Below, piece by piece: positions 3,613 through 22,345 of a DNA stretch of 53,360 bases (its first letter is position 1; every line of letters starts with the position of its first letter). The stretch spans positions 1-53,360 of the forward strand of contig NZ_JASAOI010000067.1 of NCBI RefSeq assembly GCF_029953285.1. Direction: 5' to 3'. The DNA comes from Yinghuangia seranimata (GTDB lineage: Bacteria; Actinomycetota; Actinomycetes; Streptomycetales; Streptomycetaceae). The position numbers were made by a program, and so were the translations under genes. The notes under the pieces are model-generated. The model searched no databases. It was not told where the DNA came from and saw only the letters and a program-made list of their open reading frames with translations.

Positions 3613-4479
3613 GTGGACTCGCCAGTCAGGATAGCCGACATGCCGTGGCTTTCCGATGGTGCTGTCGATCGTCCCGCATCGCGGACGGCCGCCACCACGC
3701 AAACCGACCTGTTTGATCACCATGCGCTGCTCAGCGCGGATGGAGTAACGCTCAGCGCCGTCCACCATGCGGACGGTACCGGGGAAGGCGGGCGTGATCT
3801 GGCGTTCGTGGTCGCGCACGGGTTCACCGGATCGTGGCGTCTGCCGCGGGTCGGGGCGGTCGTTTCCGAGCTGCGCGCGTACGGCGGCGTGGTGGCGTTC
3901 GACTTCCGCGGCCACGGCGCGTCGGGCGGCAGCAGCACCGTCGGCGACCGCGAGGTCCTCGACCTGGACGCGGCGGTGCGCTGGGCCCGCGAGCTGGGCT
4001 ACCGGCGGATCGTCACGGTGGGCTTCTCGATGGGCGGCTCGGTCGTGGTGCGGCACGCGGCCCTGCGCGAGGACCACGCGCCGGTCGACGCGGTCGTCGC
4101 GGTGAGCGCTCCCGCGCGCTGGTACTACCGGGGCACGCCGCCCATGCGCCGGATCCACTTCGCCATCGACCACCCGATCGGCCGCCTCGTGACCCGCGCC
4201 GTGCTCAGGACCCGGGTCTCCGGGCGCCGGTGGAACCCGGTCCCGGAGGCGCCGAAGGACGTGGTCGGGCGGATCGCGCCGACGCCGCTGCTCATCGTCC
4301 ACGGCGACCGCGACGCGTACTTCCCCGTCGACCACCCCGAGCAGCTGTACGCGGCCGCCCGCGAGCCCAAGGAGCTGTGGATCGAGCCCGGCCTCGGGCA
4401 TGCGGAGAACGCCGTCGGCCCCGAGCTGGTCAAGCGGATCGGGGAGTGGGCGGAACGGGCTTCGAAGCGTCGTACGTGA
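3613..4479 (+). CDS. alpha/beta hydrolase
   Basis: A 288-residue alpha/beta-hydrolase. The catalytic triad is readable: nucleophile Ser139 in GFSMGGS, Asp234 in HGDRDAYFP and His263 in GLGHAEN. The oxyanion region is HGFTGSW. No signal peptide is seen, so it should be cytoplasmic. The GTG at 3613 is the longest plausible start; ATG 3640 is another, and the conserved fold only begins near residue 60. It is divergent from glnR and followed 119 nt later by the MoaD-like gene. Substrate unknown; an esterase or lipase-like activity is likely. Confidence 0.85.
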   Translation: MDSPVRIADMPWLSDGAVDRPASRTAATTQTDLFDHHALLSADGVTLSAVHHADGTGEGGRDLAFVVAHGFTGSWRLPRVGAVVSELRAYGGVVAFDFRGHGASGGSSTVGDREVLDLDAAVRWARELGYRRIVTVGFSMGGSVVVRHAALREDHAPVDAVVAVSAPARWYYRGTPPMRRIHFAIDHPIGRLVTRAVLRTRVSGRRWNPVPEAPKDVVGRIAPTPLLIVHGDRDAYFPVDHPEQLYAAAREPKELWIEPGLGHAENAVGPELVKRIGEWAERASKRRT

Positions 4480-4597
4480 CCCCTGGGGCCTTTGCGCTGT
4501 TACGGGGTTCGGATCCGGCGTGCGCGGGCGCGATGATGGGGCACTCTGGAGTCGCGCGACCGAGGGGCGCGACGAGCAGCGAACGGAAGTGGGCGTG

Positions 4598-4858
4598 ATG
4601 GCGGTCGGCACGATGCGGTACTGGGCCGCGGCCAAGGAGGCGGCGGGTACCGGCGAAGAGCCGTACGACGCGCCGACCCTGGCCGAGGCGCTGCGCGCGG
4701 CGAGGGAACGGCACGCCACGTCCCCGCGGTTCACGCCCGTGGTCGGGAACGCCTCGTTCATCGTGGACGGCGACCCGGTGGGCAAGCGCGACCACGCGAC
4801 GGTGGAGCTGACCGAGGGCGGCACCGTCGAGGTCCTGCCGCCTTTCGCCGGCGGATGA
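4598..4858 (+). CDS. MoaD/ThiS-family sulfur-carrier-like protein
   Basis: An 86-residue beta-grasp protein (MAVGTMRYWAAAKEAAG) ending in VEVLPPFAGG. The terminal Gly-Gly is the thiocarboxylation site in MoaD and ThiS. The ATG at 4598 has a GGAAGTGG ribosome site. Its stop overlaps the next start (ATGA at 4855), so the two genes are translationally coupled. No partner MoaE or ThiG is in the window. The sulfur acceptor pathway (molybdopterin, thiamine or other) cannot be told from sequence. Confidence 0.85.
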   Translation: MAVGTMRYWAAAKEAAGTGEEPYDAPTLAEALRAARERHATSPRFTPVVGNASFIVDGDPVGKRDHATVELTEGGTVEVLPPFAGG

Positions 4859-6219
4859 GCGGCGGCGCGCACGGGCCTCGGCCCGACGCACCGGGGTACG
4901 GGGACTGGGGCGTGCCGGAGCAGCAGCAGTACGGGCAGCCGGGGTACGGGCCCGACTACGGGGGCTACCCGCAGGAGGGGCAGTACGGCGGGGGCGCGGC
5001 CCCCGACGGGTACGCCGCGGGCTACTCCGACGCGTACGGAGGCGCGCCCGGCGACGGGTACCCCCAGGCGTACGCCGGTCCGGAGCAGCCGCAGGCGTAC
5101 GCGCCGGAGTACGCCCCGCCCGCGCCGTCGGGCCACCCGGCCGAGGGATACGCGGGCGGGTACGGCGAGCCCGCGCCGGGCCCGGGCGGATACCCGCCGG
5201 GGCCGACGTACGAGCCCGCCTACGACGAGGGCGGCGCCACGGCCTACGCGGCGGACTACACCGACTACGCGGACGTCGACACCGCGCAGCCCGCGGGGCC
5301 CGACGGCTTTGCCGGCCTCGACGACGAGTACGACCGGTTCGACCGGTACGAGGGGCACGAAGGGGACGCGGGGCACGACGGGCACGACGGGCACGACCAA
5401 CTCCCGACCGTCCCCGAACCGCGCCGCGCGGAACCGGCCGGGACCGCGGCCGAACGTGCCGCGCGCCGTGTGCCGATCTGGCACCCGCCCGGGCTGGTCC
5501 CGGCGCTGCTCACCGGCGGCGTCGCGGCCGTGGTCGCCGCGGGCGCGCTGGTCGGCGGCGCCGGTGCGGCGGTCGGCGTCGCGGTCCTCCAGGTGCTGAC
5601 CGCGGCCGGGTGGTTCCGGCTGCACGGCATGTGGCCGGCCCGGCAGGGCATCGCGCTCGCGGCGCTGGCGGGCCTCGCGGCCGACGCGGTGGTGCTGAAC
5701 GCGGGCGACGACGCGCTGCGGACGCTTCCGGGCGTCATGGCCGTCGTGCTGGGCGTCGCGCTGCTGCAGCAACTGGCGCGCCGCGACGGACGCCCGGAGC
5801 TGATGTCCGCGCTGACCGTGACCGCGACGGCGGCCCTGCTGACCGTGCTCGACGTGCTGTACGTGCTGGCGGCACGCGTCGAGGGCCCGGACGTCCGCGA
5901 CGGCGCGGTGGTGGTCGTAGGCGTCGCCGCGGCGGCGCTCGCCGTGCTCGTCGCGGCCCTCCCGCTCCCGGGCGTGATCGGCGAAACCGGAGGCCTGGCC
6001 GCCGCGGCGGCCGTCGGCTTCGCGGCCGGCGGCGCCTTCGGCCTGGGCACCCCAGGCCTCGCCCTGGGCACCGCCGCCGGCCTCCTGGCCCTCATGGGTC
6101 GCCGCACGGCGGGCTACGACCACCCGTCGAAGTTCGTCCACATGACGGCAGGCGTAGCCCTCCCCGTGGCCCTGGCCGCCCCGGCGGTCTACCTCCTGGG
6201 CCGGGTGGCCATCGGCTGA
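4855..6219 (+). CDS. Tyr/Gly-rich low-complexity membrane protein
   Basis: A 454-residue protein. Residues 1-~150 are a low-complexity Tyr/Gly/Pro/Gln domain with many YG and GY units (QQQYGQPGYGPDYGGYP). A short acidic and His-rich stretch follows (HDGHDGHDQ, ~176-184). From ~residue 205 there are about seven hydrophobic helices rich in Ala, Val and Gly. The start overlaps the stop of the MoaD-like gene. The disordered head is predicted to be cytoplasmic and could self-associate. I know of no function for the family. Confidence 0.8.
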   Translation: MSGGAHGPRPDAPGYGDWGVPEQQQYGQPGYGPDYGGYPQEGQYGGGAAPDGYAAGYSDAYGGAPGDGYPQAYAGPEQPQAYAPEYAPPAPSGHPAEGYAGGYGEPAPGPGGYPPGPTYEPAYDEGGATAYAADYTDYADVDTAQPAGPDGFAGLDDEYDRFDRYEGHEGDAGHDGHDGHDQLPTVPEPRRAEPAGTAAERAARRVPIWHPPGLVPALLTGGVAAVVAAGALVGGAGAAVGVAVLQVLTAAGWFRLHGMWPARQGIALAALAGLAADAVVLNAGDDALRTLPGVMAVVLGVALLQQLARRDGRPELMSALTVTATAALLTVLDVLYVLAARVEGPDVRDGAVVVVGVAAAALAVLVAALPLPGVIGETGGLAAAAAVGFAAGGAFGLGTPGLALGTAAGLLALMGRRTAGYDHPSKFVHMTAGVALPVALAAPAVYLLGRVAIG

Positions 6220-6234
6220 ACCCCCAACGAGGCA

Positions 6235-6766
6235 ACGGCCCCGAGCCCCGCCCGACGGCCTGAACAGCGAGGCCGTGGCCGCACGCCCGCACCGTGCGGC
6301 CCCGCCGCGCTGTGACGATCCGGCGCCGCGCGGTCGGGCAACGGCTGCGAGGCGAACGGCTGTGAGGCGCGGCAACGGGCTGAACAGGGCGCCCGTCCCG
6401 CGTGCCCCCAGCGTGCGGCCGCGCCGCCCTGCGACTGCCCGGCGCCGGACCGCCCGGCGCTTGCACCCTGACCCCGGTGTGCCGTTGAGGCCGTGGGCGC
6501 ACGCTGCCCGCGGCGTCATGCTGGAGCGGCGCGGGCGGCGGCGACGGCCCCGAGCCTCGACCGACGGGCTGAACAGCGAGGCCGTCCCGCTTGCCGGCAA
6601 CGTGCGGCCACACCGCGACATGACGACCCGTCGCGGCGGTCGGGCACCGGTGGCGAGGCGCGGATCGCCTCCCCGGCGTACTCGAACGCGGGACCGCCAG
6701 GCGCTTGCTGCACCCTGACGTCGGCACGCGGTTGACGCCGCAGGCGCATGCCGCTGGAGCGTCAGG
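6235..6766. repeat. decayed direct repeats in a non-coding stretch
   Basis: The ~830 bp between the membrane protein and the sigma factor holds no convincing gene. It contains three diverged copies of a 23-mer around CTGAACAGCGAGGCCGT at 6254-6276, 6374-6396 and 6563-6585. The first and third are preceded by the same CGGCCCCGAGCC block and all are followed by GTGCGGCC. A second motif (GACCGCC.GGCGCTTGC...CACCCTGAC) occurs near 6459 and 6699. This looks like two or three copies of a ~240-bp unit that have drifted apart. No open frame is conserved between copies. Confidence 0.55.
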
Positions 6767-7048
6767 GTGGTCCCCATGGGCGGAGTCGACGCCGCTGTAC
6801 GACCGTTCGGACCTGCTGGCGGCGTCGGCTTGGCCGGTCGCCCAACGGAGTCGCCTGGCAACGGCCGTTCCGTAGGTGGCCGTCGCCTCATCGTGTGCCG
6901 CGTCCGGCGCTTCCGCCGCCCACCTCGCCCGCTCGGTCGTCCGAAAATCGGACCGGTTGGCGTGGCGGGTGCGGAATTCCCGTCAACTCGCCCGCCCGTC
7001 GCGGCGATTCCTCTGGTGGCAGGCGGAAGATCGCGGGAGGATTCCGTC

Positions 7049-9665: not shown

Positions 9666-10505
9666 ATGAGCCGCTCCGACGTCCTCGTAGACGCCGCCTG
9701 GGTCGAGGCCAACCTCGACAACCCGAAGGTCGTCCTGGTCGAGGTCGACGAGGACACCGCCGCGTACGAGAAGAACCACATCCGCGGCGCGGTCCGCATC
9801 GACTGGCGCAAGGACCTGCAGGACCCGGTCAAGCGCGACTTCGTGGACCAGGAGGCGTTCGGCGCGCTGCTGTCCGCCAAGGGCATCTCCAACGACGACA
9901 CCGTCGTCCTGTACGGCGGCAACAACAACTGGTTCGCGTCGTACGCGTACTGGTACTTCAAGCTGTACGGCCACGGCGACGTCAAGCTGCTCGACGGCGG
10001 CCGCAAGAAGTGGGAGCTCGACTCCCGCGAGCTGGTCGTGGAGGTGCCCGAGCGCGCCGCCACCACCTACGTCGCGCAGGCCCAGGACACCTCGATCCGC
10101 GCCTGGCGCGACGACGTCCTCGCCGCGATCGGCACCACGAACCTCGTCGACGTGCGTTCGCCCGACGAGTTCTCCGGCAAGCTGCTCGCCCCCGCGCACC
10201 TGCCGCAGGAGCAGTCGCAGAAGGCCGGCCACGTCCCGACCGCGAAGAACATCCCGTGGTCGAAGGCCGCCAACGACGACGGCACCTTCAAGTCCGACGA
10301 GGAGCTGAAGGCGCTGTACGAGGGCGAGGGCGTGGACCTGTCCAAGGACACCATCGCGTACTGCCGTATCGGCGAGCGTTCGGCGCACACCTGGTTCGTC
10401 CTGCACGAGCTGCTGGACCAGGCGAACGTGCGCAACTACGACGGTTCGTGGACCGAGTACGGCGCGCTGGTCGGCGTTCCGATCGAGCTCGGCTCCGGCA
10501 AGTAA
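9666..10505 (+). CDS. thiosulfate sulfurtransferase (rhodanese, CysA/SseA type)
   Basis: A 279-residue protein with two rhodanese domains. The catalytic Cys233 lies in AYCRIGERSAHTW, which matches the CRIGERS loop of mycobacterial CysA as I recall it. The enzyme transfers sulfane sulfur from thiosulfate to an acceptor thiol or cyanide in the cytoplasm. The ATG has a GGAGG-type ribosome site (cggaggtaaaca). A DUF1416 gene follows after 35 nt, a conserved actinobacterial pair. The Cys-rich leader peptide upstream suggests control by cysteine supply. Confidence 0.93.
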   Translation: MSRSDVLVDAAWVEANLDNPKVVLVEVDEDTAAYEKNHIRGAVRIDWRKDLQDPVKRDFVDQEAFGALLSAKGISNDDTVVLYGGNNNWFASYAYWYFKLYGHGDVKLLDGGRKKWELDSRELVVEVPERAATTYVAQAQDTSIRAWRDDVLAAIGTTNLVDVRSPDEFSGKLLAPAHLPQEQSQKAGHVPTAKNIPWSKAANDDGTFKSDEELKALYEGEGVDLSKDTIAYCRIGERSAHTWFVLHELLDQANVRNYDGSWTEYGALVGVPIELGSGK

Positions 10506-10540
10506 GCACAAGCGCGGCATTCAGGTAAGGGAGCAAGAAC

Positions 10541-10831
10541 ATGTGCGGCGCGAAGGCCGGCGGGCCGGATCTGGCAGGAGTTGACGTGGCGAACGAGACG
10601 ATCATCCAGGGTTCCGTGACCAAGGGCGGGCAGCCGATCAGCGGCTACGTCCGTCTCCTGGACGCGGGCGGCGACTTCACGGCGGAGGTCCCCACCTCGG
10701 CGACCGGCCAGTTCCGGTTCTTCGCCGCCCCGGGCACCTGGACCGTGCGGGCCCTGGTCCCCGGTGCGACCGTCGACCGCGCCATCGTCGCCGAAAAGGG
10801 CGGCGTGGCCGAGGTCGAGATCGCGGTCTGA
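10541..10831 (+). CDS. sseC: DUF1416 (SseC-like) protein
   Basis: A 96-residue protein beginning MCGAKAGG, followed by a small beta-sandwich-like region (GSVTKGGQPISGYVRLLD...GQFRFFAAPGTWTVRAL). The N-terminal CGAKxGG motif and its position right after a CysA/SseA sulfurtransferase match the SseC family. Its role is unknown, but gene pairing suggests sulfur handling with the upstream enzyme. It is likely in one transcript with that gene, and a hairpin terminator lies ~105 nt downstream. Confidence 0.88.
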   Translation: MCGAKAGGPDLAGVDVANETIIQGSVTKGGQPISGYVRLLDAGGDFTAEVPTSATGQFRFFAAPGTWTVRALVPGATVDRAIVAEKGGVAEVEIAV

Positions 10832-10936
10832 CCCTCGGGCGTTCCTCGGGTCACTTGACGGCGCGACCGCCGCGGGCCACCGGGTCTCCTCCGGACGTAC
10901 ACCCACGGTGCCCGGCCCCGCGACGGCCGCGCTGAC

Positions 10937-10986
10937 GCGAAGGGCGGCGTTCCTCCCCCGAAAGGGCGAGGGGCGCCGCCCTTCGC
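10937..10986 (+). terminator. hairpin terminator after sseC
   Basis: A 13-bp perfect stem (10937-10949 with 10974-10986, GCGAAGGGCGGCG) and a 24-nt G/C-rich apex that can itself pair. No U-tract, as is common in high-GC actinomycetes. Confidence 0.6.
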
Positions 10987-11077
10987 CGTCCCCCGGCGCG
11001 GAAGCCGTGTAGTCGGCGCGCCGGTCGGGCAAGATCGCCGTTGTGACCAACACATTGTCGGCAGAACGGATCGGTTG

Positions 11078-11401
11078 ATGGCCTGGGTGCTCGTCATCAT
11101 CGCCGGCATCCTCGAGACCGGCTTCGCGCTGCTGCTCAAGGCCAGCCACGGCTTCTCCCGGCTGTGGCCCACCATCGGCTTCGCGGCCTGCGCGATCAGC
11201 AGCTTCGGCCTGCTCACGCTGTCGCTCAAGACGCTGGACGTCGGACCCGCGTACGCCGTGTGGACGGGCATCGGCGCGGCCGGCACGGCACTCATGGGCA
11301 TCTGGCTCTACGACGAGTCCTCGTCGGTCCTCAAGCTCGTGTCGATCGCCCTCATCCTGGCGGGCGTGGTCGGCCTGAACCTGTCGGGGATCAGCCACTG
11401 A
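11078..11401 (+). CDS. SMR-family small multidrug/guanidinium exporter
   Basis: A 107-residue protein with four membrane helices. The N-terminus MAWVLVIIAGILETGFALL carries the SMR glutamate (Glu13) in helix 1. KASHGFSRLWP and VGPAYAVWTGIGAAGTALMG resemble the SugE/Gdx branch, known for guanidinium/proton exchange, more than EmrE. SMR proteins act as antiparallel dimers in the membrane. The ATG is used; an in-frame TTG lies immediately before it. The ribosome site is weak. No guanidine riboswitch was recognised upstream. Convergent with the first ASST-LGFP gene and separated from it by a shared terminator. Confidence 0.88.
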   Translation: MAWVLVIIAGILETGFALLLKASHGFSRLWPTIGFAACAISSFGLLTLSLKTLDVGPAYAVWTGIGAAGTALMGIWLYDESSSVLKLVSIALILAGVVGLNLSGISH

Positions 11402-11475: not shown

Positions 11476-14400
11476 TCAGTTGTTTCTGGCGCTCCCGCAC
11501 TTGGCCTCGGCCACCCCGGTCGCCGAGTTCCAGACGATGCGGCCCCACGTGAACGTCTGATACCGGCTGCCCGCCGGAAGGCCCTTGTCGTAGGTGTTCG
11601 ATTCCCACCCGGCCGGCACGCCGAGGCAGCTCTGGTCGGCGCCCATCGACTGGTACTTGGCCCAGACACCGCCGTAGACCTGGAACGGGATTCCCCGCGC
11701 GTACGACATGTAGATGGCGCCGCGCTCGGCCACCACGACCTGGCCCTGTCCGTCGGCGGTCACCCGGACGTCGGCGATCGGCAGGCCCAGGTTGGGCTCC
11801 GCCCAGATCGCCGGGTTGAGCTCGTTGTCCGGCACCATCCGCGCGCCGAGGTCGGCACTCCAGTAGATGACCCCGTGCTCGAAATGCTGCACCTGGACCC
11901 CGGGATGGCCGTTCAGCGGCCACTCGTGCCCGCGCGGGAAGCCGAGCCAGCCCGAATCCCAGTTCTGCGACGCCCACTTGTCGGCCATCGCGCCGCGAAT
12001 GATGCTCGCCCCGGTGTTCGGGCTCCAGAAGACCGCGCCGCGCTGGTAGAGCTGGTAGGTGCCCCGGCCGCTCCCCGTGACGATCTCGTCGGTCATGGGG
12101 AAGCCGAGCCAGATCGCCCCGTTGTAGCCGTAGATGCCGTTCCGCCAGGTCTCCAGGATCGCCCCGTGCATCTCGTGCGCGCCCGTGTCAGCGGTCCACA
12201 CGACGAGCCCGCGTTGGAACGAGGTCGTCCGGGCGGAACCGGGGACGCCCTGGAGGTCGTGCTCGGTGTCCGTGGGATAGCCGAGGAAGCCCGTCGGGCC
12301 GCCGAGCTGGAGCCACTTCGTGCGGATGCCGCCGTGGACCTCGTGAGCCCCACTGCCGGGGCTCCAGTAGATCGAGCCGCGCTCGAACTGCGAGACGCGG
12401 CCGACGCCGTCGCCGACGTTGAGCTCGTCGGTCGTCGGGAGGCCGAGGAAGCCATAGGCGCCGCCGTTGGCCTGCCACTCCTGGTAGATGCCGCCGAAGA
12501 CGACGTGCACGTCGCCGTTCGGAGCCACCGTCACCGCACCGCGCTCGAACTGCTGCACGGTCGCGCCGTTGACGGTTCCCGCGGCACTGGTCGGGTAGCC
12601 GACCGCGGACTTGACCTGCTGCCACTTGGCGTAGACCGCGGGGGAGATCGGGAACGCGTTGGGCGAGTCACAGGTCGCCGCGTAGAGCCGGGTGAGCGCG
12701 AAGTCCTGCGTGCAGCCGGTCCCGGACGGGTCGGCGACCGGCTCGGCCACCGGGTAGCCGAACTCGGCCACCGGGTTCTTCGACGTCAACCATCCGTACG
12801 CGAAGCCGCGCTTGAGCAGGTACGTCGTGTTCGCCGGCGTGCGGATGAGCATTGATCCGTCGGCGACGACCACCGAGGAACCGCCGTCGGGGTACACGGT
12901 CATCGTGCTGCGGGGCGCCCCGAGCGGACCCGTGGCTCCACCCCGCGCCCGGTACTCGTCGGCGAGCGGCCCATAGACGAGGGCGGCCGCGCTGCCCCCG
13001 TTCGCGGGGCTGTAGTAGCCGAAGCCCTTGGTGAAGTCGCGGAACTGCCCGCCGTTCAGCGGGGTCATGAATCCGGTCGGCGTCCCCATCACGCTCGGAT
13101 CCGGAAGGGCGGCGACGAACTGGGTGACTACGTCGGTGTACGAGAACGGCGACGATCCATGAGGGAGCGGGTTGCCGGCGCCGTCGAGCGCAGTCACCAC
13201 CCATCCCATGGCCGTCGGAGGCAGGGGCGCCTCGAACGGGGTGCCGACGCCGGCGGACGGGACCGTCGCCAGCGGGGTCAGGTGGTCCTTGTCGGGGCCG
13301 GCGGAAATCCGCCACGCGGCGACGCCGGGCGCGCCGTTCCAGATCGCCGCGCCGCGCACCTTGCCGTCCGCCGTGGCGGAGGCGTTGACGAAGAAGTACG
13401 GGCTGGTCGACGTCCACGAGACGCGCTGAGCGCGTGCCGCCGGGACGCCCGCGGGGAGCTGGCTCTCGAACACGACGGTGCCGCCGGGCGTCACCTCGGC
13501 GACGGCGCCCTTGGCGCCGAACGTGACGAGCCGGTTTCCGTTGGGGAGCACCTGGTTGCCGCCCGTGCCGACGTCCTGGACCGGGTCGTCGGGAGTCCAA
13601 CGCCAGTCGAGCGAGGCGGTCTTGGCGCTCTCGTCGAGCGTGTAGGCCACCGAGCGCGCCGACTTCGAGGCGCTGTCGTCGAGGAAGGAGAGCCGGCCGG
13701 TCGCGTCGACGGTCGCGTCGATCGGGCGCGTCGGCGCGGCGTCGGTGCCGGCGAACGTGAACTCGTTGCGCTTGCCGCCGAGGATCCACGTGAAGCCGCC
13801 GGTCGCGCGGTCGAGCTTGTAGACCGAGCCGGTACCGGACGCGGACGCGAGGATGTCGCCGTTCTTGTCGTAGGACGCGGCGTTGAGGCCGACGTAGTCC
13901 ACGCCGGACGTGATGGTGCCGAGGCTGTCGCCGAGCGGCACCTGTCCGGGACCGGCCTTGAGCGACGCCCACTCGTACGTCGTCGCGCCGGTGGCGAGGT
14001 CGACCTCGCGCACGACGCTTTCGAGCACGCTGCCGTTCTTCGCCCCGCCGAACGTGGTCAGGTCGACGGTCGCGGGCCGCTGGAACGTGATCAGCGCTTT
14101 GGTGCCGTCGGCGTTGGTGCTGATCGCGGACCGCTCCCGCACGATGCCGGGGGTGTAGATCTCCCGGAGGTCGTTGTCGTCGCTGTCGATGACGGACCAG
14201 CGGTCCCAGCTCGGGACCGCCAGCGCGGGCTTTCCGAGATAGGTGATGCGCGTGAGGTTCCGCAGGTCGGAGCTGTAGACGATGCGGCCGCTGTTGTCGT
14301 AGATGAACGACGCTTCGGGGATCTTGCCGGACGCGCTGTTGCCCCCCAACAGGAGTCCGGGTGCAACGCCGTCGGTGACGCGTGTCGCGATCGGCGTCAG

Positions 14401-14625
14401 CGGGAATCCGTACTGCCACGGGGAGCCGGGGCTCGGCGGCGGCGTGATCGCCTGCGGCAGGACCGCCGGTGTTCCCGACGCGGCCGCGGGCGGCCTGCCG
14501 TTCGAGAACGTGGGGGGCACGGGCGAGGCCGCTGTCGCCGTGCCGGACACGCCGACGACGACACACGTCGTCAGAACGGCCGTCGAGCAGGCCCCGGCCA
14601 GGGCCCGTCTTATGGAGTTGCTCAA
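11476..14625 (-). CDS. secreted ASST-like/LGFP-repeat protein, copy 1
   Basis: A 1049-residue protein. Order: signal peptide (1-~33, RRALAGACSTAVLTTCVVVG then an ATA|ASP-like cleavage site); arylsulfotransferase-like propeller (~75-395) with SVYKLDRATGGFTWILGGKR at 267-286 and GGNQVLPNGNRL at 355-366; an Fn3-like module (~400-515); then about ten LGFP-type repeats to the end (for example WLGFPMTDE, WLGFPRGHE). Positions where I expect His in catalytic ASST proteins are non-His: GLNAAS (246-251) instead of HxNS, RPID (300-303) instead of QHD, and EWASL instead of EWHSL. The TTG start at 14625 has GGAAGGAA 7 nt upstream. Probably exported and wall-associated; sulfotransferase activity is doubtful. 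Confidence 0.85.
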   Translation of the reverse strand: MSNSIRRALAGACSTAVLTTCVVVGVSGTATAASPVPPTFSNGRPPAAASGTPAVLPQAITPPPSPGSPWQYGFPLTPIATRVTDGVAPGLLLGGNSASGKIPEASFIYDNSGRIVYSSDLRNLTRITYLGKPALAVPSWDRWSVIDSDDNDLREIYTPGIVRERSAISTNADGTKALITFQRPATVDLTTFGGAKNGSVLESVVREVDLATGATTYEWASLKAGPGQVPLGDSLGTITSGVDYVGLNAASYDKNGDILASASGTGSVYKLDRATGGFTWILGGKRNEFTFAGTDAAPTRPIDATVDATGRLSFLDDSASKSARSVAYTLDESAKTASLDWRWTPDDPVQDVGTGGNQVLPNGNRLVTFGAKGAVAEVTPGGTVVFESQLPAGVPAARAQRVSWTSTSPYFFVNASATADGKVRGAAIWNGAPGVAAWRISAGPDKDHLTPLATVPSAGVGTPFEAPLPPTAMGWVVTALDGAGNPLPHGSSPFSYTDVVTQFVAALPDPSVMGTPTGFMTPLNGGQFRDFTKGFGYYSPANGGSAAALVYGPLADEYRARGGATGPLGAPRSTMTVYPDGGSSVVVADGSMLIRTPANTTYLLKRGFAYGWLTSKNPVAEFGYPVAEPVADPSGTGCTQDFALTRLYAATCDSPNAFPISPAVYAKWQQVKSAVGYPTSAAGTVNGATVQQFERGAVTVAPNGDVHVVFGGIYQEWQANGGAYGFLGLPTTDELNVGDGVGRVSQFERGSIYWSPGSGAHEVHGGIRTKWLQLGGPTGFLGYPTDTEHDLQGVPGSARTTSFQRGLVVWTADTGAHEMHGAILETWRNGIYGYNGAIWLGFPMTDEIVTGSGRGTYQLYQRGAVFWSPNTGASIIRGAMADKWASQNWDSGWLGFPRGHEWPLNGHPGVQVQHFEHGVIYWSADLGARMVPDNELNPAIWAEPNLGLPIADVRVTADGQGQVVVAERGAIYMSYARGIPFQVYGGVWAKYQSMGADQSCLGVPAGWESNTYDKGLPAGSRYQTFTWGRIVWNSATGVAEAKCGSARNN

Positions 14626-14648
14626 GGGTGTTCCTTCCCCGCGGATTG

Positions 14649-14679
14649 CCGAAGGCCCGGCGGGCGGCCGGGCCTTCGG
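14649..14679 (-). terminator. hairpin terminator after ASST-LGFP copy 2
   Basis: A 13-bp perfect stem, CCGAAGGCCCGGC (14649-14661) with its complement (14667-14679), and a 5-nt loop. It lies 20 nt after the stop of copy 2 and 24 nt before the TTG of copy 1. The stem is the same sequence as in the terminator of copy 3. Confidence 0.8.
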
Positions 14680-14698
14680 GTCGAACTGTCGTGCACTG

Positions 14699-17600
14699 TC
14701 AGTAGGTCTTGCCGTTGAAGCACTTGGCGACGGTGGAGCCGTCCGGGTACCAGGTGATCGTGCCCGTGGTGAACTGCTGGCCCCGTGCGCCGGCCGGGCT
14801 CGTGTCGTACTCGTGCGACGTCGGCGTTCCGAGGCAGCTGTTGTGCGCGCCGAGGGACTGGTACTTGGCCCACACGCCGCCGAATACCGGGATGGTGAAC
14901 CGGGGGCTCGCGTACACGTTCGTGTACACCGCGCCCCGCTCGTACAGCACGTACTCCGCGCCGTTTCCGGCGACGGCCACGTCGCTGGTCGGCATGCCCA
15001 TGTTCAATTGATCCGTGTAGTCGAAGCCCGGCGGGAGGATGTGCGTACCGGTGTACGGGCCCCAGACGATCACGCCGTGCTCGAAGCGCTGGAGCCTCCC
15101 GGTCCCTGCCCTCTCCTCGTCGCTGATCGGGTAGCCGAGCGGTCCGGAGTTCCAGTTCTGCGAGGCCCACTTGTCGTTGATACCGCCGTGGATGATGTAC
15201 GCGCCGTTCTCCGGGGTCCAGAAGATCGAGGCGTTCTGGAACACCTGGTAGCGGCCTCGGCCGTCACCCGCCGCCATCTCGTCGGTCAGCGGGAAGCCGA
15301 CCCAGAATCCGAGGTCCGTCGTGCCGCCCCAGCGGCTGAAGATCCCGCCGTGCACTTCGTGAATACCGGTCGCCTGGTTCCACACGAGCGAGCCGCGCTG
15401 GAACGAGGCGATGAGTCCGCCCGCCGCGCTCCCGCCCATGACCCGCTGCGTGCCGACCGGGTAGCCGAGGAAGCTCGTCGGGCCGCCCAGTTGCAGCCAG
15501 CGGTCGCGGAGTTCCCCGTGCACCTCGCCGACACCGCTGTTCGGCGACCAGTAGACCGATCCGTGCTCGAACTGCGAGACGCGGCCGACTCCGTCGCCGA
15601 CCGGCAGCTCGTCGGTCGTCGGCAGGCCGAGGAACCCGGTCGGGCCGCCTTGCTGCTGCCACTGGTCGTTGATGCCGCCGAACACCCACCGGACGTCGCC
15701 CGCCTGGGTCTGGACGATCGTGCCGCGTGCGAACCGCTGCACGGTGTTGCCGTTGACCTTCTCCGGGCCGTCCACGGGGTACCCGAACCACTGTCGCAGG
15801 GTGTCCCACTTGGCGCCGATCGGGCCGGACACGGGGAATGCCACGGCAGCGTCGCAGGTGGGCGCATACAGGCGCGCGAGCGTGAACGTCTGGAGGCAAC
15901 CCGTCCCGGCCGGGTCGGTTCCCCCTTCCGCGGTCGGATAGCCGATCTCCGTCGCGGGCGAGGCGTACGCGCGCCACGCGTACGCCATCGGTCCGACGAC
16001 GCGGTGGGCGCCGGTTGCCGCAGACCAGACCAGCACGGAGTAGTCGCCCAGCACGACGGAGGAGCCCCCGTCGGCGTAGGTCTTCATCGACTCGAGCGGC
16101 GCTCCGTACGGGCCCGCCGGCCCACCCGCGGCCTTGTAGGCATCGGCGAGCGGTCCGTAGACCAGGCTGACGGTGCCCCGCTGCGGGTTGTAGACCCCGA
16201 CGCCGGTGCTGAAGTCACGGACCCAGAGCGTGCCTGTGTACGTGGGCAGGCCCAACGGGGTGCCCATAACCGACGGGTCGGGGAGCTGGCTGACCGCCTT
16301 GATGATCTCGTCGACGAAGCGGAACGTCGACGTGCCGCCCGGGATCGGCTTGCCGTCCTTGTCGAGCGCGGTCACCGCGTAGCCGACGTCACTCGGCGCG
16401 AACGGCGCCTCGAACCGCGTCTCCAGGCGGGTCGCGGGGGTCGTGAACGACGGCGTCAGGTGGTCCTTGTCCGGACCGACCGACACCTGCCACGAGACCA
16501 GTTCCGTGGCGCCGTTCCAGGAGGCGTACAGCGGGATCTTCCCGCCGGTGTACACCGTCTGGGCGGAGAGGTTGACCTCTGAATTGCCGGTCGACGTCCA
16601 CTCGGCACGCTGCGTCCGCGTGACCGCCGTGCCCGCCGGGATCTGGCTCTCGAAGACGACGGTGCCGTTCGGGGTGACCTCGACGACGGCGCCCTTGGCG
16701 CCGAACGTGATGAGCCGGTTCCCGTTGGGGAGTACCTGGTTGCCGCCGGTCCTGACGTCCGACACGGCGTCCTGCGGTGCCCACCGCCAGTCGAGCGCGG
16801 CCGACTTGGCGTTCTCGTCGAGCGTGTAGGCGACCGACCGCGCCGACTTCGCCGCGCTGTCGTCCAGGAACGCGAGACGCCCGGAGCCGTCGCGCGTGAC
16901 GTCGATCGGCCGGGTGGGCTCGGCGTCGGAGCCGGTGAACGCGAACTGGTTGCGCTTGCCGCCGAGGATCCAGGTGAAGCCGCCGGTGGCACGGTCGATC
17001 TTGTACACGGAGCCGGTTCCGGCGGCCGACACGAGGACGTTGCCGTCGGTGTCGTACGAAGCGCCGTTGAGGCCGGTGTAGTTGACGCCCTGTGCGATGG
17101 CGACCCGGCTGTCCGCGAGCGGAACCTGGCCGGGGCCCGCCGCCAGCGACGACCACTCGAAGGTGGTGGCGCCGGTGGACAGGTCGATCTCGCGGACGAC
17201 GCCTTCCACCACCGAACCGGCCTTGGCGCCGCCGTACGGCGTCAGGTCGGCGGTGGCGGTGCGCAGGAACGTCAGCAGGGCCTTGGTGCCGTCCCCGTTG
17301 GTGCGGATGTACCCCTCACCGGGCACGATGCCGGTCAGCGTGATCGTCCGGAGCGTCTTCCAGGCCGCGTCGTGGACGGTCCAACCGGAGCCGCCGGGCA
17401 GGGCGATCGCGGGTTTTCCGAGGTACGTGATCACCGCCGGGCCCCGCGTGCCGTCGCCGCCGCCGCGGCCGTACAGCGTGCGGCCGATGTTGTCGTAGAT
17501 CTGGCCGGTGGTTGCGGCGAAGTCGCTGCGCGCGTTGCCGGCGAAGAGCAGGCCGGGGGCCACAGCGCCGGACACCTTGGTCGCGACCGGCGTGACCATC

Positions 17601-17818
17601 AGCCCGGCCTGCGGGCTCCCGGCGGGCGGCGGCGGAGTGATCGTCTGCGGTGCGGTGAACGGGGCGCCCGGGGTGCTCGGCGCGGCCGCCGCGAACGTCG
17701 CGGGTACCGGATATGCGGGTGTTGCCGAAGCCGTGCCGGAGATACCTACGACGACACAGGACGACAGAACGGCCGCCGAGCAGACCCCGGCGAGGGTCCT
17801 TCTCACAGGACTGGACAC
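14699..17818 (-). CDS. secreted ASST-like/LGFP-repeat protein, copy 2
   Basis: A 1039-residue paralogue of the flanking genes with the same order: signal peptide (VRRTLAGVCSAAVLSSCVVV), ASST-like propeller (SVYKIDRATGGFTWILGGKR, GGNQVLPNGNRL), Fn3-like module (YASWNGATELVSWQVSVGPD) and about ten LGFP units. The expected His motifs are again substituted: GLNGAS, RPID and EWSSL. The last repeat has one Cys near LGTP and one close to the C-terminus (STVAKCFNG), a possible disulfide shared with copy 1. The GTG start at 17818 gives MSSPVRRT; the nearest G-rich site (GGGGGAG) is ~13 nt upstream, so initiation may be weak. Confidence 0.85.
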   Translation of the reverse strand: MSSPVRRTLAGVCSAAVLSSCVVVGISGTASATPAYPVPATFAAAAPSTPGAPFTAPQTITPPPPAGSPQAGLMVTPVATKVSGAVAPGLLFAGNARSDFAATTGQIYDNIGRTLYGRGGGDGTRGPAVITYLGKPAIALPGGSGWTVHDAAWKTLRTITLTGIVPGEGYIRTNGDGTKALLTFLRTATADLTPYGGAKAGSVVEGVVREIDLSTGATTFEWSSLAAGPGQVPLADSRVAIAQGVNYTGLNGASYDTDGNVLVSAAGTGSVYKIDRATGGFTWILGGKRNQFAFTGSDAEPTRPIDVTRDGSGRLAFLDDSAAKSARSVAYTLDENAKSAALDWRWAPQDAVSDVRTGGNQVLPNGNRLITFGAKGAVVEVTPNGTVVFESQIPAGTAVTRTQRAEWTSTGNSEVNLSAQTVYTGGKIPLYASWNGATELVSWQVSVGPDKDHLTPSFTTPATRLETRFEAPFAPSDVGYAVTALDKDGKPIPGGTSTFRFVDEIIKAVSQLPDPSVMGTPLGLPTYTGTLWVRDFSTGVGVYNPQRGTVSLVYGPLADAYKAAGGPAGPYGAPLESMKTYADGGSSVVLGDYSVLVWSAATGAHRVVGPMAYAWRAYASPATEIGYPTAEGGTDPAGTGCLQTFTLARLYAPTCDAAVAFPVSGPIGAKWDTLRQWFGYPVDGPEKVNGNTVQRFARGTIVQTQAGDVRWVFGGINDQWQQQGGPTGFLGLPTTDELPVGDGVGRVSQFEHGSVYWSPNSGVGEVHGELRDRWLQLGGPTSFLGYPVGTQRVMGGSAAGGLIASFQRGSLVWNQATGIHEVHGGIFSRWGGTTDLGFWVGFPLTDEMAAGDGRGRYQVFQNASIFWTPENGAYIIHGGINDKWASQNWNSGPLGYPISDEERAGTGRLQRFEHGVIVWGPYTGTHILPPGFDYTDQLNMGMPTSDVAVAGNGAEYVLYERGAVYTNVYASPRFTIPVFGGVWAKYQSLGAHNSCLGTPTSHEYDTSPAGARGQQFTTGTITWYPDGSTVAKCFNGKTY

Positions 17819-17982
17819 GGGTGTTCGCTACTCCCCCCAGTAGTTGGCAGCCCCATTGAGCAGCCTGACGGTTGGTCGCGTCAAGCGGGAATTCCGACCG
17901 GAGTCACCGCCCGACGCAGAGTCACTTTCCGGCCGCGAAAAGGGATTCCGGACGGCTGATGAGTCGACATATGGCCGTGCGT

Positions 17983-18015
17983 GCCGAAGGCCCGGCAAAT
18001 GGCCGGGCCTTCGGC
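17983..18015 (-). terminator. hairpin terminator after ASST-LGFP copy 3
   Basis: A 14-bp perfect stem, GCCGAAGGCCCGGC (17983-17996) with its complement (18002-18015), and a 5-nt loop, 31 nt beyond the stop of copy 3. The remaining 227-bp gap holds no other feature I can support, but must contain the start signals of copy 2. Confidence 0.8.
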
Positions 18016-18045
18016 GTTCGGTTCCGATTCCGGATCGCGGAATGC

Positions 18046-20829
18046 TTACCGGACGACGGTCCTCGTCTGCCCGGTGGCCGCGCTCCATTCGATGTACCCG
18101 TGCTCGAAGTCGCTGCGGCGCAGCCCGTCTGCCGGGCTGTACTCGTTCGACGTCGGGTAGCCCAGCCGCCCGCGTTCGGCGCCGGCGGCGACCCACGCGT
18201 CGCGGATGCCGCCGTGCACCTCGTGGGCGCCGGTCTGCGGCGTCCAGTACATCCCGCTGCGCTCGAAGAGCTGGTACGCGCCGCGGCCGTCGGGCGTCGG
18301 CATTTCGTCCGTCGTCGGGTAGCCGTAGTAGGCCTGTTCCGCCGGCGTGTGGCTCCAGAGCGCCCAGATGCCGCCGTGCACTTCGTGCGCGCCGGTGCCT
18401 GCCGTCCAGAAGACCACGCCGCGTTGGAACTGGTTGAAGGTGGCGATGGGGTCGAAGCCGACGTACACCTCGCCGCTCGTCGGGTAGCCCAGGAAGCTCC
18501 GGACGCCGCCGAGCGCCAGCCACTTGTCGCGGATGCCGCCGTGCACGGTTCCGGCACCCGACGAGGGAGACCAGTAGATGGACGCGTGCTGGAAGTGCTG
18601 CACTCGGCCTATGCCGTCTCCCGCCGGGAGTTCGTCGGTGGTCGGGGCGCCGATGAATACGTTGTCGCCCTTCCAGGCCACCGCCAGGATGCCGCCGAAG
18701 ACGGCGTGTGCACCGGTCTCGTCCGAGTACGTGATGATGCCGCGTTCGAAGTCCATTCCCCCCTGGTACGGCGCGAAGTTCGGGTATCCGAGGACACGCC
18801 GGCCTTCCTCCTTCATGCTGTTCCACTTGCCCAGCACGGGTTCGAAGACCGGGAACGCCCTGTTCCCGTTGACCAGGCTGCAGCCCTTGGCGTACATGGT
18901 CGCCTTGGTGAACTCCTGGTAGCAGCCGGTCCCGTACGGGTCGCTCTGCTGCTCACCCTTCGGGTAGCCGATGAACGTCGTCGGATCTCCAGAGATCACG
19001 CCTGGCAGGCCCATGTGCGAGTTCCAGTAGGTGTCCCACGACTGGGACATGACGCTCGCGATGAGGTGCGCCCCGGTCGCCGGAGACCACGCGATGTACG
19101 CGAAGTTGCGCAGCTTGACCGACCTTCCGCCGTCGGGGTGGACGCGCATCGTTGCGACCGGAGGGCCGAGGAAACCGTCCGGGCCGCCGTACTTGCGGTA
19201 CTCGGTCGCCACTGCGCCCGCGATCGCGGACACCTCGCCCGTGGGGGCGGTTCCGCCGGTCGTGTAGGCGAGGCCCTGTGTGTAGTCGCGCACCCACCCC
19301 TCGCCTATGCGGTACGGGAACGACGTGGCGACGCCCATGGACGCCGGGTCCGCGAGCCGAGCGACTCCGCCCGAGAGGACGTCGAGGTACGTGACAGGTG
19401 TCGTACCGACCGGCAGCGACGCGCCGTCCTTGTCGAGTCCGGTCACGGTGAACGCGGCGTCCGACGGCGCGAGCGGGATCTCCAGATTCACCGCGGTGTC
19501 GACCGCGGGCAGGGTGAACACCTTGTCGAGGTGGTCCTTGTCCTGCCCGGACCGGACCTGCCACGACACCAGTTCGGTCTGGCCGTTCCACCGCAGCCGC
19601 ATCGTGGCGGTCTTGCTGTCGAGCCGCGCCAGGCCGTCGTAGCCCAGGTAGGGCTCCTCGGTCGGTGCGGTCTTCCACGTGACCCGTTCGGTGCGGCTGA
19701 CGTGCACGCCGGCCGCCGCCTGGTTCTCGAAGACGACGTCGCCGTCGGCGGCGACCTCGACGACCTTGCCCTGCTCGCCGAAGGTGAGCAGCCGGTTCCC
19801 GTTGGGCAGCACCTGGTTGCCGCCGGTGAGCAGTCCCGTCACCGGGGTGGCGGGTGCCCAGTTCCACGTCCGCTGGGCCTTCTTCGCGTTGCCGTCGACC
19901 GCGTACGTGACCGAACGCGCCCCCGAACCGCCGTTGCCGGCGTCGAGGAAGCTCAGCGCGCCGTTCTCGTCCATCCGCGCGTCGATCGGGTGCGCGGGCG
20001 CGGCGGACGTGCCCGCCAGGCCGAACTGGTCGCGTTTGCCGCCCAGGATCCAGTCGAACGTCCCGGTGGCCTGGGCGAGCTTGTAGACGGATCCGGTGCC
20101 GCCGCCCGAGACGAGGATGGTTCCGTCGGGTGCGTAGGAGGCGGCGTTGACGCCGAGGTAGTCGGCCGCGGCGGGGGTCAGGCTGTCCTGGACGGGCACC
20201 CGCGCGGTCTCGCTGCCCAGGGAGTTCCATTCGAACAACGTCTTGCCCGAGCTGAGCTCCACTTCGCGGACGACGCCCGCGAGGACCTTGGCGTCCTTCG
20301 CTCCGCCGGTCGCGCTGAGGTCGACGGTCGCCCAAGCGCTGCCGGTGATCAGCGCCTTGGTGCCCTGGGTGTCGGTGGACAGGTGGTCGGCGGTGTTGAG
20401 GTACGGCGCAGGTACGCGACCGACCTGCTCACCATGCGTGTTCGTGAGCCGCCAGCCGCCGTACGGGCTGCGGTCCGCGAGAACCGGCGAGCCCTTGAAC
20501 GCGACGACAGTTGTTCCGGTCGTGTCCCCGGCCCGGTAGAGCACGCGGCCGGTGTTGTCGTAGACGAGTCCTTCGGGCCCCCGGCCGGGGGCGCTGTCCG
20601 TGCCGCCGATCAGCAGGCCCGGCGCCGCGCCGGCGGTCACGTGCGTGGTGCCTGCCGGGCCGCCCTCGGCCGCCGACACGCGCGCCGGCGCGGTGGACGG
20701 CGTGTCGACGACGCCTCCGGTGCCGGGCGGCGGGGTTGGATCGGCCGAAGCCGCGGTTCCTGTCACCAGCGTTGCGACGAACGCCGTAGAGCAGACGGCC
20801 GCCAGAGACCGTCTCGATATGCGCGCCAA
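18046..20829 (-). CDS. secreted ASST-like/LGFP-repeat protein, copy 3
   Basis: About 927 residues and the most diverged of the three. Signal peptide MARISRRSLAAVCSTAFVA ending TAASA|DP; ASST-like propeller (SVYKLAQATGTFDWILGGKR, GGNQVLPNGNRLLTFG); Fn3-like module (LRWNGQTELVSWQVRSGQD); eight LGFP units, about two fewer than its neighbours, which explains the shorter length. His-motif positions read GVNAAS, HPID and EWNSL. The His of HPID is two residues off the usual QHD position. The frame extends to GTG 20865, but TTG 20829 places the twin-basic signal peptide at the N-terminus and follows a G-run, so I prefer it. Confidence 0.83.
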   Translation of the reverse strand: MARISRRSLAAVCSTAFVATLVTGTAASADPTPPPGTGGVVDTPSTAPARVSAAEGGPAGTTHVTAGAAPGLLIGGTDSAPGRGPEGLVYDNTGRVLYRAGDTTGTTVVAFKGSPVLADRSPYGGWRLTNTHGEQVGRVPAPYLNTADHLSTDTQGTKALITGSAWATVDLSATGGAKDAKVLAGVVREVELSSGKTLFEWNSLGSETARVPVQDSLTPAAADYLGVNAASYAPDGTILVSGGGTGSVYKLAQATGTFDWILGGKRDQFGLAGTSAAPAHPIDARMDENGALSFLDAGNGGSGARSVTYAVDGNAKKAQRTWNWAPATPVTGLLTGGNQVLPNGNRLLTFGEQGKVVEVAADGDVVFENQAAAGVHVSRTERVTWKTAPTEEPYLGYDGLARLDSKTATMRLRWNGQTELVSWQVRSGQDKDHLDKVFTLPAVDTAVNLEIPLAPSDAAFTVTGLDKDGASLPVGTTPVTYLDVLSGGVARLADPASMGVATSFPYRIGEGWVRDYTQGLAYTTGGTAPTGEVSAIAGAVATEYRKYGGPDGFLGPPVATMRVHPDGGRSVKLRNFAYIAWSPATGAHLIASVMSQSWDTYWNSHMGLPGVISGDPTTFIGYPKGEQQSDPYGTGCYQEFTKATMYAKGCSLVNGNRAFPVFEPVLGKWNSMKEEGRRVLGYPNFAPYQGGMDFERGIITYSDETGAHAVFGGILAVAWKGDNVFIGAPTTDELPAGDGIGRVQHFQHASIYWSPSSGAGTVHGGIRDKWLALGGVRSFLGYPTSGEVYVGFDPIATFNQFQRGVVFWTAGTGAHEVHGGIWALWSHTPAEQAYYGYPTTDEMPTPDGRGAYQLFERSGMYWTPQTGAHEVHGGIRDAWVAAGAERGRLGYPTSNEYSPADGLRRSDFEHGYIEWSAATGQTRTVVR

Positions 20830-21142: not shown

Positions 21143-21505
21143 TCAGTAGACGAGGGCCTGCGCGTCGTCCGCCATCGCCTCCTGGACGAAGACCTGCGCG
21201 CCCGCGATGCGCACTCCTTCGATGACGTCGGCGCCGGTGATGCCGCGCCGGGCCGCGCACTGCGTGCACAGGGTGACCTTGCCGCCGGCCAGGACCGCGT
21301 CGAGGAGGTCGGTCAGCGGCGCGGCCTCCGGAAGGGTGAACTCGGCCGCGCGGCCCGGGAGCGCGAACCACGCCGACTCGCCGGTGAGCCACAGCGACAC
21401 GTCGACGCCGCCGGCGAGCGCGACCGCGGCCACCGTGAACGCCTGCGAGCAGCGCTCGGGCGAGTCGAGGCCCGCCGTCACCTTCAGTACGAGAGATCGC
21501 TTCAT
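21143..21505 (-). CDS. DsrE/DsrF-like family protein
   Basis: A 120-residue protein, MKRSLVLKVTAGLDSPERCSQAF, with a Rossmann-like pattern and a CTQC pair (LCTQCAARRGI) in the position used by DsrE/TusD-type sulfur carriers for a reactive Cys. It probably handles persulfide sulfur or is a structural relative of such proteins. The ATG at 21505 is chosen because the upstream codons lack similarity. Convergent with DUF3099. Confidence 0.78.
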   Translation of the reverse strand: MKRSLVLKVTAGLDSPERCSQAFTVAAVALAGGVDVSLWLTGESAWFALPGRAAEFTLPEAAPLTDLLDAVLAGGKVTLCTQCAARRGITGADVIEGVRIAGAQVFVQEAMADDAQALVY

Positions 21506-21678
21506 GCGCGACACGCTAATGCGGACGGCCCGCCGGTCCGCGCCTTGCGGGTGACGCCGCGGCGAGCAGGGTGAAGTACGGCACCCTGACCGGATCCGGG
21601 CGGGTGCCGCGCCGTACACTGATCGCGATTCGCCCTGCGCGCGGCTCACGCGCGGCACTTCGTCCGAGGAGCACCAAG

Positions 21679-21777
21679 GTGCACGTCTTCTTCATCGCGC
21701 TGCTGGTCCTGGTGGCCATCATGGTCGTGTGGTTCTCCGGGCTCACCGTGGCGAAGCTGTTCAAGGGCCAGAGCTGA
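21679..21777 (+). CDS. 32-residue single-pass membrane peptide
   Basis: GTG 21679 to TGA: MHVFFIALLVLVAIMVVWF, one membrane helix, then SGLTVAKLFKGQS. The ribosome site AGGAG (21666-21670) sits 8 nt before the GTG, which supports this start over the longer open frame beginning at 21571. It precedes the nitrobindin gene by 55 nt and may be cotranscribed with it. Function unknown. Confidence 0.62.
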   Translation: MHVFFIALLVLVAIMVVWFSGLTVAKLFKGQS

Positions 21778-21832
21778 TCCCAGCCAGGTAGGCTCGGGCC
21801 TCGAAACCCGTTCCCGTACCAGGCCGGATGAC

Positions 21833-22345
21833 ATGATCGAAATTCCGGACGACATGCACCCCGACGTCGTCCCGCTCGCCTTTCTGCTCGGCACCTGGGA
21901 AGGCGCCGGAGTCGGCGACTACCCGACGATCGAGGCGTTCCGCTTCGGTCAGCAGGTCACCTTCACGCAGGACGGCCGGCCCTTCCTCGCCTACACGTCG
22001 CGCACGTGGCTGCTCGACGACGACGGCAACCGGGTCCGCCCGCTTGCGACGGAGACCGGCTACTGGAAGTCGAAGCTCGACGGCAGCGTCGAGGTCACCC
22101 TCGCGCACCCGACCGGCATCGTGGAGATCTGGCTCGGCGAGACCGACAACGGCCGGGTCGAGATGCGCACCGACGTGGTCGCGCGCACGGTCGACGCCAA
22201 GGAGTACAGCGCGGGCCACCGGCTGTACGGCCTGGTCAAGGGCGAGCTGATGTACGCCTACGACATGGCCGCGATGGGGCAGCCGATGCAGGCCCACGTG
22301 TCCGCGCAGCTCAAGCGGGTCGACGCGGCGATCGCCGCCGAGTAG
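21833..22345 (+). CDS. nitrobindin-family heme protein
   Basis: A 170-residue beta-barrel protein with the GTWEGAGVGDYP motif typical of nitrobindins (GxWxGxGxGxYP). A His near the C-terminus (MQAHVSAQLKR, His ~157) fits the proximal heme ligand. Family members bind ferric heme and react with NO or isomerise peroxynitrite. Cytoplasmic, full length. The following hairpin separates it from the convergent LCP gene. Confidence 0.88.
   Translation: MIEIPDDMHPDVVPLAFLLGTWEGAGVGDYPTIEAFRFGQQVTFTQDGRPFLAYTSRTWLLDDDGNRVRPLATETGYWKSKLDGSVEVTLAHPTGIVEIWLGETDNGRVEMRTDVVARTVDAKEYSAGHRLYGLVKGELMYAYDMAAMGQPMQAHVSAQLKRVDAAIAAE

Follow-up and report, generated by a model that had tools for sequence, protein, structure and literature searches.

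The window, that is the whole stretch of 53,360 nucleotides that was analyzed, carries three complete open reading frames arranged head to tail on the reverse strand in a member of the genus Yinghuangia (Streptomycetaceae). Gene 1 (P0001, 11476..14625) encodes 1049 aa from a TTG start and gene 2 (P0002, 14699..17818) encodes 1039 aa from a GTG start, both identified from the ORF list, the translations and Pfam; gene 3 (P0003, 18046..20865; ORF list and Pfam) encodes 939 aa from a GTG start. An alternative TTG start of P0003 at 20829 fits the end that the initial annotation gave to the group, although the longer ORF reaches 20865. GC at the third codon position of P0001 was 0.94. The initial annotation had described three paralogues with an ASST-type propeller, an Fn3-like module and LGFP repeats, and the ORFs and Pfam matches bore this out, the domain order in each being signal peptide (recognized by eye), ASST-like propeller, Fn3-like module and LGFP array. 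The propeller and Fn3-like module together occupy residues 81–498 of P0001 (13132..14385, reverse strand), 80–503 of P0002 (16310..17581, reverse strand; the region modelled with AlphaFold) and 74–495 of P0003 (19381..20646, reverse strand). The LGFP repeat regions, delimited by PF08310 matches on the same strand, lie at 11509..13086 in gene 1, 14738..15943 in gene 2 and 18034..19170 in gene 3, where the last match overruns the stop by a few bases. With signal peptides judged by eye, all three proteins are probably exported. A promoter and terminator scan of the locus returned no sites, and consensus promoters may differ from those of this organism. A GC-rich inverted repeat was seen by eye between genes 1 and 2 (14640–14682); it is absent from the terminator scan output.

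The initial annotation had proposed comparison with Pfam. All three proteins exceeded the curated cut-off of 27 bits for PF14269 (Arylsulfotran_2; 58, 65.8 and 53 bits for P0001, P0002 and P0003) and the cut-off of 22 bits for the LGFP family PF08310 (296, 288.5 and 257.6 bits over 9, 10 and 7 stretches), and fell below that of 24.2 bits for PF05935 (23, 22.6 and 18.5 bits). NCBIfam gave nothing relevant on the three proteins, its one match being weak, unrelated and to P0001. The nearest solved structure was Cpz4, to which residues 125–492 of P0002 were matched using phmmer (PDB 9kf4/9kf6, E 2.6e-31), with 26% identity as aligned by Foldseek, and whose entries are labelled in Foldseek as a Streptomyces caprazamycin sulfotransferase, 9kf6 being a reaction intermediate. 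Foldseek also placed 9kf6 (1.9e-21) and 9kf4 (6.5e-20) at the top with the AlphaFold model of P0002 residues 80–503, a ranking that lends weak support since this model, built from five rows, was poor (pLDDT 59.5, pTM 0.52). Cpz4, described in the accessible text of PMC13426309 as an active PAPS-independent arylsulfate sulfotransferase, resembles P0001–P0003 in having a propeller followed by a C-terminal Fn3-like module, into which the match extends. It differs in being a 472-residue chain without an LGFP array and in retaining the equivalents of His252, His356, Arg374 and His436. These residues are numbered after E. coli AssT (PDB 3elq, 3ets, 3ett, 4p04), an enzyme not known to carry LGFP repeats, to which the window proteins were related at the profile level (E 2.1e-6). 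E. coli AssT differs further in being active through sulfated His436 and in having an N-terminal beta-sandwich, according to the same accessible text (PMC13426309).

For the mapping of active-site residues, a profile built from 10 canonical relatives was aligned with Cpz4 and E. coli AssT 3elq. His436 could be placed from QHTA in 3elq, which is QNTA in the 4p04 chain; it is the residue described in the account available from PMC13426309 as sulfated and as highly conserved in every known member. The mapped residues are named there, as is Thr501. In the profile alignment, with codons on the reverse strand, the His436 equivalent was Ile302 of P0001 (13720..13722), Ile305 of P0002 (16904..16906) and Ile294 of P0003 (19984..19986). 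That of His356 was Gly246 (13888..13890), Gly249 (17072..17074) and Gly238 (20152..20154), respectively, and that of Arg374 was Ser263 (13837..13839), Ala266 (17021..17023) and Gly255 (20101..20103). The Asn358 equivalent is Asn in all three. For the stretch around His252 of 3elq the aligned segment stayed below threshold, at −2.2 bits, making this equivalence weaker than those of the other sites, and the residue assigned there depends on the alignment: Ala, Tyr and His in P0001, P0002 and P0003 with MAFFT (P0003 DHLST), and Ser, Gly and Asp in the profile alignment.

The claim of the initial annotation that the catalytic histidine site was lost holds for His436, which is Ile in all three copies and absent from all ten LGFP-fused members found in this work (see below), and the motifs it quoted are present (GLNAAS, GLNGAS and GVNAAS; RPID, RPID and HPID; EWASL, EWSSL and EWNSL in P0001, P0002 and P0003). 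Loss of the upstream His of the HEF segment, corresponding to AssT His252, stands for P0001 (Ala) and P0002 (Tyr) and is doubtful for P0003, which has His in the MAFFT alignment. The His of EWHSL does not hold as a fixed catalytic residue, its position being variable in intact enzymes (EWDSL in Cpz4, EWHSL in L131, from another Actinomycetota genome). A near-invariant His does lie a few residues past EWxSL (DHV) in 86 of the 89 non-LGFP rows covering it and in none of the ten LGFP-fused members. Loss of Arg374 in all three copies is a further change, missing from the earlier list. By sequence the three proteins are of the ASST family, and by this active-site test they are outside the enzyme class.

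The same residues were followed across relatives in a census of ORFs longer than 150 aa (loci L001–L122) aligned to a combined profile, in which 127 aligned rows were reduced to 105 after repeats were dropped. Eleven rows carried LGFP, one of them (L043) without the propeller; the other 94 lacked it and include a few that derive from a single gene in pieces. His436 was present in 90 of the 90 non-LGFP rows covering the site (4 gaps) versus 0/10 LGFP-fused members, a contrast exceeding chance. His356 was found in 85/90 versus 1/10, Arg374 in 89/90 (one Lys) versus 3/10, and Asn358 in 90/90 versus 7/10. The five non-LGFP exceptions at His356 form a separate short subfamily in which His436 is retained. 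In this Streptomycetaceae ASST-like subfamily (L019, L020, L022, L023 and L089) His356 is replaced by Leu or Met, and the catalytic His is followed by Cys or His. In the ten LGFP-fused members the His436 site holds Ile, Leu, Phe, Gln or Glu, and the Asp following it is retained in eight.

The initial annotation had raised the possibility that conserved histidines reach the active site from other segments. None was found by sequence: in the alignment of the ten members no propeller column held His in more than three, and the single widely common His (9/10) sits in the Fn3-like module. The propeller of P0001 contains no histidine at all, so no substitute could be common to the three copies. A substitute His from another segment was rejected as a candidate on the lack of a common propeller column.

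Two trees were built without rows shorter than 260 residues, repeats, broken pieces and the short-subfamily loci L033–L035. The ten LGFP-fused rows formed one clade in the careful tree, for which 46 of 89 rows were selected (100/100; 200/200 bootstrap trees), and again in the quick tree of all 89 rows (support 99). In the latter the clade was joined by L131 (support 99; = L099, genome G1102, Actinomycetota; 4117–7014, forward strand), which like the LGFP fusions has an ASST propeller, an Fn3-like module and a C-terminal extension, the last matching FG-GAP weakly and LGFP not at all; unlike them, it retains His252, His356, Arg374 and His436. Within the clade P0001 paired with L030 of Yinghuangia soli (100/98) and P0002 grouped with the Y. 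soli tandem pair L029 (98/68), so the duplications are older than the species split. P0003 was the most divergent of the three window copies, and long branches led to L041 and L117. L041, L005 and L032 have Arg374 and lack His356. L031 splits off before the six remaining members of its own branch and has His356, with Gln at the His436 site and Thr at Arg374. Since one member still has His356 and three have Arg374, the nucleophile was probably lost first, in the common ancestor; by parsimony judged by eye, the simplest reading would then involve two or more losses of His356 and a single loss of Arg374.

Five ASST-LGFP fusions were found in the window's genome, P0001–P0003 together with L005 (contig C5) and L041 (contig C57; PF14269 at 17.9 bits, under the cut-off), and five in Y. 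soli (KLBMP 8922), namely the pair at L029, L030, L031 and L032. No intact ASST was found in either genome by PF14269 or PF05935, each match being an LGFP-fused member. A third Yinghuangia genome gave LGFP matches and no copy of the fusion by PF14269, PF05935 or the family profile (best 4 of 44 candidates). A wider search used overlapping draws of 394, 394 and 396 genomes; at most the best 4 candidates per genome were scored, and listed matches at E 1e-10 with open frames of at least 700 aa were fetched, up to 30 loci at a time and in some cases covering just a portion of the frame. Among the matches listed, no LGFP fusion lay outside the window's genome and Y. soli. A wider family extending beyond the two species was rejected, the fetched matches from outside both genomes being without LGFP among the matches listed.

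Six more LGFP proteins of the window's genome bear other modules (L038, L039, L040, two at L042, and L043). A glucose/sorbosone dehydrogenase-like match and PKD stand ahead of LGFP in L038 (2515–5919, reverse strand), L039 (1371–4631, forward strand) and L040 (1992–5144, forward strand). One of the two L042 proteins has a sub-cut-off Ig-like match. In L043 (2739–4532, reverse strand) the N-terminal part aligns solely with the Fn3-like module, as though the propeller had been deleted.

In Y. soli one of the copies, L030, is flanked by the same neighbors as the window genes, with a sulfurtransferase (98% identity), a DUF1416 protein (100%) and an SMR protein (92%) on one side and a DsrE-like protein (79%), a heme-binding barrel (94%), a LytR-CpsA-Psr protein (81% over 310 residues) and a Fur-like protein (88%) on the other. 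In the copy-free member of the genus and in a genome of the same family (G005), SMR adjoins DsrE with no ASST-LGFP gene between; two others of the family (G004 and G013) gave no SMR match there and are uninformative on this junction. The ASST-LGFP genes would have been either gained in the lineage of the two species or lost in the other. The ASST-LGFP genes thus lie in a conserved block whose flanks (9666–11401 and 21143–22345) include sulfur-related genes (rhodanese-type sulfurtransferase, DUF1416, SMR and DsrE-like), a neighborhood that may be meaningful or fortuitous.

Selection was estimated as dN/dS using a simple counting method, the values of which are rough on GC-rich codons. Between the syntenic orthologues P0001 and L030, dN/dS was 0.39 overall, 0.32 in the propeller and 0.40 in the LGFP region; between P0002 and L029a it was 0.42, 0.35 and 0.41. 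The propeller no longer evolved more slowly in more distant pairs, with propeller and LGFP values of 0.52 and 0.51 (L005–L032), 0.74 and 0.75 (P0002–P0003) and 1.16 and 0.81 (L041–L005). Whole-gene dN/dS was below 1 in 8 of 8 pairs (range 0.34–0.87), and all ten LGFP-fused frames are open (795–1061 aa). The dN of P0001–L030 was 0.28, versus 0.00–0.05 in six of seven flanking genes and 0.20 in LCP; dN/dS of the flanking genes was 0.00–0.11, with LCP at 0.41. By this rough method the ASST-LGFP genes appear to be maintained and yet fast-changing.

Column conservation was then compared around the old active site. Within ±4 columns, conservation in 8 of the tree set's 79 canonical rows was 0.638 versus 0.457 elsewhere, a value reached by 4 of 352 shifts, so that in these relatives the active site is the better conserved part. 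The six close LGFP rows gave 0.638 versus 0.586 (123 of 316 shifts as high) and all ten LGFP rows 0.455 versus 0.405 (99 of 316 shifts); at ±6 columns the six close rows gave 0.588 versus 0.588 (174 of 321 shifts). For single segments in the six close rows the values were 0.35 at His252, 0.65 at His356 and 0.79 at Arg374, versus an average of 0.59. Column conservation in the LGFP rows thus gave no sign of a binding pocket conserved where the active site had been, which weighs against a simple account of a ligand in the pocket.

Residues 666–917 of P0002 matched the LGFP array of Corynebacterium glutamicum PS1 (PDB 6swz, 6sx4), which we take to be MytA. In the available portion of PMC11299179, MytA is given as the only reported LGFP structure, and its LGFP domains are said to interact with peptidoglycan-arabinogalactan components. 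MytA is described there as a mycoloyltransferase domain with 5 repeats (PMC11299179), whereas P0001–P0003 have an ASST-like propeller with 7–10 repeats. By analogy, the LGFP array probably tethers P0001–P0003 at the cell wall. To our knowledge, corynebacterial-type wall arabinogalactan is not expected in Streptomycetaceae, so the target of LGFP in the Yinghuangia wall may differ.

Taken together, these data make it somewhat probable that the proteins are secreted pseudo-arylsulfotransferases, in which the sulfohistidine chemistry has been dismantled and the propeller has become a fast-diversifying, non-catalytic binding module held in the wall by the LGFP array. The sulfohistidine route as described could not run without His436. 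The propeller and an Fn3-like module of the Cpz4 type would persist as a binding surface for a glycan, an aryl ester or a protein; the steps of export, of wall binding by LGFP as in MytA and of ligand differences between copies are ones that we infer. The steps supported by sequence are the open genes, their place in the Cpz4 branch, the disappearance of His436 from all ten members along with most other active-site residues, the single clade, purifying selection, and tandem and dispersed copies. Fast change, tandem copies and presence or absence between genomes fit a role in surface recognition. A more ambitious form of this reading, which we hold only tentatively, is that a dead sulfotransferase gave rise to genus-restricted wall receptors, the nucleophile being lost first and the other residues in lineage-specific orders, and that duplication multiplied the propeller as a diversifying recognition surface, with the wall glycan, aryl ester or partner read by it differing from copy to copy.

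That the old active site is not clearly better conserved than the remainder of the propeller argues against one ligand held in a conserved pocket, and it keeps in play a rather unlikely reading in which the propeller is a structural head or spacer, tolerated baggage, while the LGFP array does the work, for example in wall cross-linking or masking. Consistent with this are L043, which has Fn3 and LGFP without a propeller, the LGFP arrays behind quite different modules, the faster change of P0001 than of most flanking genes (dN 0.28 versus 0.00–0.05 in six of seven; LCP 0.20) and the faster propeller of L041–L005 (dN/dS 1.16 versus 0.81). Against it, propeller dN/dS was lower than that of LGFP in the two clearest cross-species pairs (0.32 versus 0.40; 0.35 versus 0.41), and the six close members have numerous invariant positions in the propeller. 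The regular form of the replaced segments in these six (GxNxA, TGSVYK, P-x-D), together with Asn358 in 7/10 members, Asp after the His436 site in 8/10 and the His356 and Arg374 segments somewhat above average in the six (0.65 and 0.79 versus 0.59), could also be expected of an enzyme of altered chemistry, carrying out another reaction or transferring sulfate through a non-His residue. Catalysis by other residues would be compatible with the sequences; nevertheless we think such an enzyme improbable, as the nucleophile was lost in all ten members with five different replacements, unlike a new common catalytic residue, the propeller has no common His, and the old active-site segments were jointly not clearly more conserved than the remainder. 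The mosaic loss of active-site residues, the fast protein change and the lack of a copy found in the third genus genome might finally be read as genes decaying and on their way out. This we regard as very improbable in view of the ten open frames of 795–1061 aa, the five copies in each of two species, whole-gene dN/dS below 1 in 8/8 pairs (though one propeller-only value was 1.16) and the syntenic orthologue retained in Y. soli. Simple gene decay was rejected on synteny, open frames and dN/dS, and the view of the initial annotation that the loss is old and selected, not decay, is supported by the single clade (100/100), the duplications predating the Y. soli split, the open frames and the dN/dS of 0.39 in the syntenic pair.

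For pseudo-arylsulfotransferases of this kind the parts are each known, and no account of an ASST propeller that lacks its nucleophile and is joined to LGFP came up in the open PMC literature; searches there found nothing for LGFP with arylsulfotransferase or for arylsulfate sulfotransferase with pseudoenzyme, and no mention of 9KF4. The Pfam arylsulfotransferase label carried by most of the ten members is, judged from their active-site residues, probably misleading on activity. According to the accessible text of PMC13426309, more than 40 years have brought to light no natural sulfuryl donor for these sulfotransferases, and most of them, though not Cpz4, still lack a known natural acceptor. 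A lineage in which the chemistry has been discarded and the propeller kept under selection could be used to probe for the ligands of the fold. Its members also make up a graded set of pseudoenzymes, with the nucleophile gone throughout and His356 or Arg374 surviving in some, and in this streptomycete relative LGFP arrays serve as a tail that can be exchanged between several modules. The sequences suggest that an old enzyme of a soil bacterium has been turned into a non-enzymatic surface protein.
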